A DNA stretch of 64,000 nt from Pigmentiphaga humi (GTDB taxonomy: Bacteria > Pseudomonadota > Gammaproteobacteria > Burkholderiales > Burkholderiaceae_B), in contig NZ_UWPJ01000016.1 of NCBI RefSeq assembly GCF_900606115.1, forward strand, positions 124,001-188,000, in the 5' to 3' direction. This document shows, piece after piece, positions 14,941 to 38,999 of this stretch. The stretch's first letter is position 1. Each line of letters starts with the position of its first letter. The notes below the pieces were generated by a model, which was not told the origin of the DNA, searched no databases, and worked only from the letters and a program-made list of their open reading frames with translations. The translations under genes were made by a program, and so were the position numbers.

Positions 14941-15019
14941 CCCAGGGCACAGCGGATCCGGCTCCGCCGGTCCGCCAGTGCCGCCCCCTCGGGGGGCGCG
15001 CGTCAGCGCGTAGGGGGGG
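14941..15019 (+). repeat. intergenic palindromic repeat, family A, copy 2
   Basis: Same module order as copy 1 (CCCAGGG lead, GGATCCGGCTCCGCCGGTCC, CCCCCTCGGGGGG, GCGCGCGTCAGCGCGTAGGG). It lies between grpE and the 3' end of hslR. The hslR stop codon is 6 bases beyond its G-rich end. Confidence 0.85.
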
Positions 15020-15024
15020 ACCCC

Positions 15025-15402
15025 TCAGGGGGTTTTAAACCTCTCCAGGGTGCGGCGATCGTGTTTGGTGGGCCGGCCTTTGATGGCGGCGGAGGGGTCG
15101 GTGTTCTGGCGGCGCAGTTCGATGGCTTCGAGCCTGCGCTTGAGCCCCTGGGGAGTTTCGTCGTACAGCGTGCGCGCGAACACGGCGGGGCCGCGCTGGG
15201 AGGCCAGCGCGCGAACCAGGACTTCCCAATCCTGGTCGCCCGCCCGGATCTGCAGGATGTCGCCCGGACGCACCGCGCGCGCCGGCTTGACGCGCTCGCC
15301 GCCGAGCTTGACCCGGCCGTTCTCGACGGCGTCCTGAGCCAGCGAACGGGTCTTGAAAAACCTCGCGGCCCACAGCCATTTGTCGATACGCAGGTCGTCC
15401 AT
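15025..15402 (-). CDS. hslR: S4-domain RNA-binding heat-shock protein Hsp15
   Basis: 125 residues from ATG 15402; an in-frame TTG three codons upstream is the only alternative. The N-terminal S4 domain (LRIDKWLWAARFFKTRSLA, then GRVKLGGERVKPARAVRPGD) and a basic C-terminal tail (IKGRPTKHDRRTLERF) match Hsp15. That protein binds free 50S subunits carrying stalled nascent chains and helps recycle them under heat stress. The hemH stop codon lies 22 bases upstream on the same strand. Its place in a heat-shock cluster fits. Confidence 0.9.
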   Translation of the reverse strand: MDDLRIDKWLWAARFFKTRSLAQDAVENGRVKLGGERVKPARAVRPGDILQIRAGDQDWEVLVRALASQRGPAVFARTLYDETPQGLKRRLEAIELRRQNTDPSAAIKGRPTKHDRRTLERFKTP

Positions 15403-15424
15403 GTCCGTCAATCGTCCATGCGCG

Positions 15425-16541: not shown

Positions 16542-16621
16542 CCCCAGGAAACCGCGGATCCGGCTCCGCCGGTCCGCCGGTTTCGCCCCCTGGGGGGCGC
16601 GCGTCAGCGCGTACGGGGGGG
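16542..16621 (+). repeat. intergenic palindromic repeat, family A, copy 3
   Basis: Carries the family A blocks between hemH and the 3' end of hrcA; the end reads GTCAGCGCGTACGGGGGG, one base different from most copies. It is the only recognisable element in this gap. Confidence 0.85.
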
Positions 16622-21623: not shown

Positions 21624-22427
21624 ATGCGTATTGCCATCGCCGGGGCAAACGGCCGCATGGGCCGCATGCTGATCGAAGCCGTGCTGGCCGCCCCCGACCT
21701 GGAACTGGCCGTCGCGCTGGGCCGTGCCGGCAGCGCCTCCATCGGCCGCGACGCCACCGAATTCCTGGGCCGCTCCAGCCAGGTCCTGATCACCGACGAC
21801 CTCGACGCGCTCGCCCAGGCCGACTGCCTGATCGACTTCACCCGCCCGCAGGCCACGCTGGCCCACCTCGAGGCCTGCCAGCGCCACGGCGTCAAGATGG
21901 TCATCGGCACCACCGGCTTCGACGAGGCCGGCAAGGCCGCGATCCAGGCCGCGGCCGGCAAGGTGGGCGTGGTGTTCGCGCCCAACATGAGCATAGGCGT
22001 GAACGTCACGCTCAAGCTGCTGGACATCGCGGCCCGCATCCTGAAGGACGACTACGACGTCGAGGTCTTCGAGATCCACCACAAGCACAAGGTCGATGCC
22101 CCATCCGGCACGGCGCTGAAGATGGGCGAAACGGTGGCCCAGGCCTGGGGCAAGCCGCTCGAGGAAGTCGCCGAGTGGGCGCGCCACGGCGATACCGGCG
22201 CGCGCGAGCATGGCACCATCGGCTTTTCGTCGGCCCGCGGCGGCGACGTGGTCGGCGATCACACCGTATTCTTCTGCGGCCCCGGCGAACGCCTCGAAAT
22301 CACGCACCGCTCCAGCAGCCGCGCCACCTACGCCGAAGGCAGCGTGCGCGCCGCACGCTACCTGGCCGACAAGGCCAGCGGCCTGTACGACATGCAAGCC
22401 GTGTTAGGGCTCCCCTCTACGCGCTGA
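21624..22427 (+). CDS. dapB: 4-hydroxy-tetrahydrodipicolinate reductase
   Basis: 267 residues. The nucleotide-binding loop [15 protein letters not shown] is at the N-terminus, GTTGFDEAG lies in the middle, and the catalytic [15 protein letters not shown] has the conserved His and Lys. It makes tetrahydrodipicolinate in the lysine/diaminopimelate pathway. The last four codons (PSTR) and the stop TGA at 22425-22427 come from the left arm of a palindromic repeat. The convergent cheB gene ends in the other arm. Confidence 0.97.
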
Positions 22428-22468
22428 CGCGCGCCTCCCAAGGGGCGCGCGTCAGCGCGTAGAGAGGG
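22412..22468. repeat. palindromic repeat (family A terminal hairpin) shared by dapB and cheB stops
   Basis: Exact 21-bp arms (22415-22435 and 22444-22464, core TACGCGCTGACGCGCG) around an 8-base loop, with further C/G pairing outside across a 2-base bulge. Only the terminal hairpin of family A is present. The plus strand supplies the dapB stop (TGA 22425-22427). The minus strand supplies the cheB stop (TGA at 22454-22452). Both are preceded by the codons Ser-Thr-Arg. Confidence 0.92.
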
Positions 22469-23114
22469 GCAACACCTTTTGGCGCATTTCTACCGCCGCG
22501 AGCAGGCGTTGCGCCATTTGCGGGAGCGGCACGACGTCGTGGACGGCGCCCAGGGCGATGGCTTCGCGGGGCATGCCGAACACGACGCTGGAGGCTTCGT
22601 CCTGGGCGAGGTTGCAGGCGCCGGATTCGCGCAGCGTGAGCATGGCGCGTGCGCCGTCCTTGCCCATGCCGGTGAGCATGACCGCCACCGCCGCCGCGCC
22701 CGCGGCCTTGGCGACCGAAAGAAACAGCACTTCCACCGAAGGACGATGGCGGTTGACCGGTTCGTCTTCGGACAGTTGCGCGTAATAGCCGGCCAGCGGC
22801 AAGGCCTTGACGACCAGGTGGGCGTGGCCGGGAGCGATGTAGACACAGCCCGCCAGCAGCCGCTCGCCGTGCTCGGCTTCTTTCACGTGCAGGCGCGCAT
22901 GCTTGTCCAGGCGCTCGGCGAAGCTGCGCGTGAAGCCGGGCGGCATGTGCTGGGTGATGACGATGGGCGGCATATCGGCCGGCAGGCCTTCGAGCAGTTC
23001 GCGCAAGGCCTCGGTGCCCCCTGTCGATGCGCCGATGGCTACCAGCAGCCTGCGGTCGTAGCGGGAGGGCCGGGGCGTGCCGCCATCGGCCGCCCGGAGG
23101 ACGTGATCGATCAT
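22452..23114 (-). CDS. cheB: CheB-type protein-glutamate methylesterase domain, no receiver domain
   Basis: 220 residues, all of it the CheB catalytic domain. The serine-hydrolase triad is readable: Ser30 in [11 protein letters not shown], His56 in VITQHMPPG, Asp153 in [10 protein letters not shown]. Full CheB is about 350 residues with an N-terminal receiver; here only some 20 residues precede the catalytic fold, so it cannot be switched by phosphorylation of its own receiver. It would demethylate or deamidate chemoreceptor glutamates. cheR lies immediately upstream, 10 bases away. The last codons and stop lie in the palindrome shared with dapB. Confidence 0.9.
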
Positions 23115-27580: not shown

Positions 27581-27617
27581 CTAGGGGCGCTGGGGGCGCG
27601 CGTCGGCGCGTAGGGGG
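27581..27617 (+). repeat. truncated family A repeat between flgK and flgL
   Basis: Only the last part of the family A unit is present (GGGGGCGCGCGTCGGCGCGTAGGGGG with a CTAGGGGCGCT lead). It abuts the flgK stop codon and occupies most of the 67-base flgK-flgL gap. Confidence 0.75.
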
Positions 27618-38060: not shown

Positions 38061-38140
38061 CCCCAGGAAGCAGCGGATCTGGCTCCGCCAGTCCGCCAGC
38101 TTCGCCCCCTGGGGGGCGCGCGTAAGCGCGTAGAGGGGGG
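38061..38140 (+). repeat. intergenic palindromic repeat, family A, copy 8
   Basis: Family A unit between flgA and the flgM promoter, with GGATCTGGCTCCGCCAGTCC (compensating changes keep the hairpin), CCCCCTGGGGGG and GCGCGCGTAAGCGCGTAG. Its G-rich end touches the flgA stop codon. Confidence 0.85.
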
Positions 38141-38920: not shown

Positions 38921-38999
38921 CCCAGGATGCGGTGGATCCGGCTCCGCCGGTCCACCCGCATCGCCCCCTGGGGGGCGCGCGTAAGCGCGTAGGGGGGGA
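38921..38999 (+). repeat. intergenic palindromic repeat, family A, copy 9
   Basis: Family A unit between flgA and the 3' end of fliA: CCCAGGATGC lead, GGATCCGGCTCCGCCGGTCC, CCCCCTGGGGGG, then GCGCGCGTAAGCGCGTAGGG. The fliA stop codon is 5 bases beyond. Confidence 0.85.

Follow-up and report, generated by a model that had tools for sequence, protein, structure and literature searches.

In the window, which denotes the whole 64-kb stretch of DNA analysed here from a genome of 5.1 Mb in 56 contigs, the genes dapB and cheB are arranged convergently, and their stop codons, which are 24 nt apart, each lie within an arm of one and the same hairpin (Table 1). DapB contains the Pfam domains DapB_N and DapB_C, with Pigmentiphaga sp. 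NML080357 (91%) as the closest named relative by this protein. In CheB, CheB_methylest is the sole Pfam domain found and no receiver domain was detected with Pfam, in agreement with the initial annotation of cheB as receiver-less. The two proteins terminate as VLGLPSTR-stop and KVLPLSTR-stop, respectively. Since the DapB_C domain stops at residue 261 of 267, the extra residues at the end of DapB are probably harmless.

Table 1. Coordinates of the genes, the hairpin and the related repeats in the 64-kb window
Feature	Position	Strand	Remark
dapB	21624..22427	+	final four residues PSTR and stop supplied by the repeat
Left arm	22409..22435	+	17-base core of the dispersed head at 22417-22433
dapB TGA	22425..22427	+	+8 of the head core
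Loop TCCCAAGG	22436..22443		derives from the element's own small hairpin
Right arm (mirrored head)	22444..22470	-	core at 22446-22462
cheB TGA	22452..22454	-	+8 of the mirrored head core
cheB (methylesterase without receiver)	22452..23114	-	final STR and stop supplied by the mirrored arm
Canonical element copies	1811-1885, 14942-15017, 38063-38137, 38922-38996	-	all on this strand
Further heads	near 16598-16614, 27597-27613	-	

The arms of the hairpin comprise 27 nt each, are separated by 8 nt and pair at 25 of 27 positions (93% complementarity), with 21 pairs in the longest unbroken run. The early description of a near-perfect 21-bp hairpin, with both genes ending inside its arms and the codons TCT ACG CGC TGA on each strand, is thus accurate. 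When inverted repeats of at least 18 nt with arms within 80 nt of each other were counted over the whole window, 13 were found, among which this hairpin alone exceeds 85% complementarity. As RNA, it folds with -62 kcal/mol on the plus strand (z -9.8) and -60.8 kcal/mol on the minus strand (z -8.6), energies that were matched by none of 200 shuffles on either strand. A chance palindrome is rejected on the basis of these z-scores, the shuffles and the complementarity, and also because the arm is itself a dispersed repeat.

Such stability on both strands is what would be expected if the hairpin were kept as a bidirectional transcription terminator, as had been proposed for it. A hairpin with a T-run is indeed present in the dapB-cheB gap of four of six congeners scanned (G002, G004, G005 and G007), and as these terminator-like sites are missing here, something may have replaced them; the gaps of G003 and G008 also have none, so that their absence from the window is not special. 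Neither foot of the hairpin is flanked by a T-run, and a search of 22000-23000 on both strands for intrinsic (Rho-independent) terminators, defined as a hairpin immediately followed by a T-run, returned no site, on which basis an intrinsic terminator is rejected. In addition, a terminator placed a few base pairs past a stop codon is described as being nearly silenced by the ribosome (PMC4824070), and in the present case the stops lie inside the stem itself. The terminator role is therefore considered unlikely. Each of the two mRNAs is predicted to be able to form a highly stable hairpin close to its 3' end, and the likeliest role may be a passive one, in which a 3' hairpin slows exonucleases after release of the ribosome. 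The double ending itself is probably incidental, an accident in the evolution of the genome.

Pigmentiphaga-like bacteria contain a dispersed REP-like element of about 75 nt, and the left arm is its head, CCCCC-CTACGCGCTKACGCGCG, which in the full element is followed by a small hairpin and then by a second, covarying one that forms the tail. The 17-base core of the head, CTACGCGCTNACGCGCG, gave 251 genome matches with up to two mismatches, compared with 63 for a backwards control, and a 22-base head pattern, CCCCTACGCGCTNACGCGCGCC, gave 153 matches with up to one mismatch, compared with one for the control. Ten presumed congeners (G001-G010) were used for comparison: the 22-base pattern has 92-130 matches in six of them, making 92-153 across the seven clade genomes that include that of the window, and 0 or 1 match in G001, G006, G009 and G010. 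Over 200 genomes of the family, 13 contain any match, and all but eight have 0-2. One genome of another genus in the same family (G075) contains 47 head matches, compared with 0-2 in other genera, and a transfer of the element family between genera is possible.

For a closer description, 101 copies were collected, each different in sequence, with a perfect match to the 17-base core and complete flanks, both window arms among them, drawn from the first 100 listed of the 251 places (up to two mismatches) together with neighbouring and other retrieved stretches. One plan is followed by 76 of the 101, with lengths of 66-78 nt (most commonly 75 nt, in 48 copies), in which a C-run and the head precede a small hairpin, CCCCCC(A)GGGGGCG, and a long tail hairpin. 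The remaining 25 are mostly longer mosaics or small departures from the plan, and two of them are the window arms. Longer mosaics with an extra GC-rich module between head and tail are found at ten loci (L054, L056, L060, L065, L066, L171, L182, L186, L192 and L193). At L061, L064, L068, L162 and L201, ordinary heads are opposed by heads of a second subtype, CCCCCTACCCGCTNACGCGGG.

The 76 canonical copies reduce to 69 distinct ones, of which 66 were aligned after exclusion of L005, L159 and L170 for odd length. In the tail hairpin, 104 cells are changed on both sides compared with 33 in shuffles, although such cell counts are inflated by relatedness among the copies. The covariation score is 0.175 compared with 0.077 in shuffles, and 96.8% of cells are paired compared with 91.5% in shuffles and 32-48% when the partners are slid; none of 500 shuffles reached the observed number of both-side cells, the covariation score or the paired fraction. 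Two of the five measures are no better than shuffles, namely the doubly changed pairs (6 versus 6.0) and the pair types (13 versus 17.0). Nearly the same structure, with 22 pairs, five of them with double changes, was obtained independently with RNAalifold. The head and the small hairpin barely vary and are uninformative on covariation. Two ordinary elements folded singly, both in stretches cut within the tail, are not beyond shuffles in stability (z -1.04 and -0.13), so the claim of structure rests on covariation. A known RNA family was considered and rejected, as Rfam 15 at the gathering score gave no match across the whole window, although four canonical copies are present in it; the covarying tail thus marks a 3'-end element that Rfam does not recognise in the window.

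The position of the element relative to genes is equally characteristic. Most other copies in the window sit close behind genes, and among the 101 copies, 72 have a coding ORF on the element strand that ends between -45 and +10 of the head core, coding status being assigned with a custom codon score for which ORFs of the window served as training set. As controls, the tail end was examined for ORFs of the opposite strand, which gave 11 of 101, and random window positions gave 66 of 2000. The other 29 copies have no same-strand ORF above the score threshold ending in this interval, and no ORF above the threshold was found to end deeper in the element in a search to +80. Among the 72 placed stops, 56 are upstream of the head (55 between -27 and -7, and one at -45) and 16 are exactly at +8, where the TGA of the head gives a protein ending in TR-stop. 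Both window arms belong to the latter group, the remainder being 14 of the 99 other copies. Apart from the TGA at +8, which 37 of the 66 aligned copies possess, no stop triplet occurs in any frame of the forward strand in 64 of them. When the upstream stop is in the same frame, the head base is G in 10 copies and T in 7, and in other frames it is G in 12, T in 25 and C in 2; this lean is slight and too little for claiming selection for a spare stop. At a second gene, the stop has moved into the element: the gene at window 15025-15411 keeps its own stop just before the head, as do its orthologues in G002, G003, G005 and G007, and in G008 the orthologue (L220) is terminated by the stop of the head.

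The dapB-cheB locus in the congeners provides a view of how the two ends were acquired. DapB ends in PTR-stop within the head in five of ten congeners (G002, G003, G004, G005 and G007); in G002 and G004 the sequence changes after the first 11 core bases, and in G003 the stop in the head is TAA. In G008 a variant head lies directly behind dapB's own stop. The element is absent from dapB in G001, G006, G009 and G010, where DapB ends in VLGL-stop or GLK-stop, and a TR-stop ending is absent from all 17 DapB loci examined in other genera (the 17 being those loci at which DapB was found, with 80 named loci excluded from the counts). CheB ends outside the element in all ten congeners, with CCC TGA in six of them. 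The gap between dapB and cheB is short also in the element-less G001 and G006.

A tree of ten proteins places the window with G002-G005 and G007-G009 in one clade (support 100/100), in which the window is outermost (99/99), whereas a tree of DapB and CheB groups the window with G001 and G006 (95/95). The former is trusted over the latter because it is built on 3376 columns compared with 469. On this phylogeny, the element at dapB would most simply predate the split of the clade and have been lost later in G009. Independent insertions at dapB as a favoured site are also possible, since heads favour stop codons. As DapB ends in the element in five congeners and CheB ends otherwise, the repeat-borne stop of dapB is probably older than that of cheB.

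These comparisons divide the initial proposal that the repeat had been acquired into a convergent gap and had replaced both native 3' ends. Replacement stands, given the endings of the four repeat-less congeners and of the other genera, and repeat-less orthologues ending in Pro-Ser-Thr-Arg, which were looked for, did not appear. The palindrome as a single unit that replaced both ends at once, arriving ready-made, is the part that does not stand and is regarded as quite improbable. It would account for the location of both gene ends within the palindrome, and the element-less gaps of G001 and G006 are short, which is also in its favour. However, the repeat is asymmetric; its head alone ends dapB in half of the congeners, in which cheB has a different end, and G008 retains the native dapB stop with the head directly after it. 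Furthermore, a search of 11 genomes located the two-headed form without tails at a single place, even when a wider head pattern was included, so that no second double head and no donor palindrome are known; a mobile palindrome with other copies is rejected for the same reason.

The somewhat more probable account, in our assessment, is that the palindrome derives from the dispersed 3'-end element, a full copy of which became two-headed by fold-back copying. Judging from the relatives, a full element would first have come to the end of dapB in the ancestor of the clade, where dapB would have lost its own stop and adopted the TGA at +8 of the head, in one frame, giving the PSTR end seen here. Subsequently, replication may have folded back at the small hairpin of the head and copied the head in reverse; the mirrored head would have taken the place of the tail and become connected to the end of cheB, with the mirrored TGA in frame to become the cheB stop. 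Two features favour an origin in which one arm served as the template for the other. A T before CTACG is shared by both arms and is found in 3 of 99 other copies, and such a rare base common to both arms is expected if one was copied from the other. The small hairpin of the element also lies at the centre of the palindrome, and would be a natural fold-back site for a nascent strand. Template switching has been described as capable of yielding perfect hairpins in a single event (PMC8794818). No intermediate of the fold-back step was found, and the former presence of a full element at dapB in the window is deduced from relatives. Other observations that count against this account are the gap that is short in the element-less G001 and G006 as well, the DapB and CheB tree, the retention of dapB's own stop in G008 and the position of G009 within the clade without an element.

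The main and serious rival is that two elements lay tail to tail, one behind each gene, and that a deletion removed both tails, perhaps followed by a later evening-out of the arms. This rival is plausible, if short of an even chance. In the stretches read, ten other tail-to-tail head pairs are found at distances of 112-254 nt, 14 of the 99 other copies likewise end a gene at +8, and at L226 (G002:C4:38325-38440) a full element is paired with an oppositely oriented head whose tail is mostly gone, this being the only match at a spacing of 64-94 nt in 11 genomes. Against this, none of the ten congeners has an element behind cheB, exact-head pairs 33-63 nt apart are absent from the 11 genomes, and the rare T in both arms is seldom expected of two independent copies. 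An assembly or library artefact that generated the second arm is hardly credible: fold-back artefacts do occur in sequencing libraries, but in such a product the sequence should continue back into dapB, and the right arm instead joins an intact cheB frame within a contig of 213,908 bases.

If fold-back copying did take place, one snap-back event could have written the C-terminus and the stop of the opposite gene at a stroke, and the family might be viewed, tentatively, as a portable gene ending whose TGA lets native stops decay. The locus provides a worked case in which a dispersed repeat rewrites the ends of proteins, that of the preceding gene first and that of the facing gene subsequently through a mirrored copy. 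Since the copies number around one hundred in each of many congeners, the loss of native stops beside a repeat-borne stop can be traced gene by gene.

The family has the broad attributes of REP-like elements in its copy number (153 matches, control 1), the hairpins kept in 66 aligned copies and the placement behind genes (72 of 101 copies versus 66 of 2000 random positions). Tagged REPs have GTAG or CGTC at the foot of the hairpin, with GTAG generally standing before the head hairpin; in the present element, CTAC precedes the head hairpin and GTAG thus follows the hairpin on the reverse strand. A Y1_Tnp transposase (PF01797) of the genus as the mover is rejected, as no match was found in any of the seven element-rich genomes; the single match in 11 genomes is a 36-aa open frame in G009, and 5 of 14 control genomes were matched.

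Several described systems resemble the element in part. The REP-like Bor repeats are found in Bordetella, which belongs to the same family as Pigmentiphaga, and are described as stem-loops near coding regions with tens of copies of a 30-mer; their length of 26-30 bp differs from the approximately 75 nt of the Pigmentiphaga element, the comparison being by description alone (PMC1590033). E. coli REPs, again compared by description, include some that lie no more than 15 nt from a stop codon and in that position are reported to reduce translation of the gene before them (PMC12306157), whereas in 16 of 72 placed Pigmentiphaga copies the stop is inside the element. Hairpins arising by template switching, as described in PMC8794818, likewise involve a reverse-complement copy from one replication event that gives a perfect or near-perfect stem, but here the copied arm would also give codons and a stop to a gene on the opposite strand. 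The closest parallel is offered by the GTAG REPs of PMC3733652, which are described as short, palindromic, high in copy number, mostly intergenic, often close behind genes and near the 3' ends of convergent ones, with dimers that include those at convergent gene pairs, and whose termini often supply stop codons to flanking ORFs. The stop supplied by those termini is TAG, compared with a TGA (TAA in G003) inside the Pigmentiphaga head, and the Pigmentiphaga element further differs in its length of about 75 nt, its second covarying hairpin and the absence of any REP-type transposase from the seven genomes rich in the element. No account of a mirrored double ending was found in the open-licence literature; stop-supplying REPs have already been described (PMC3733652), and what is new is the mirrored double ending.
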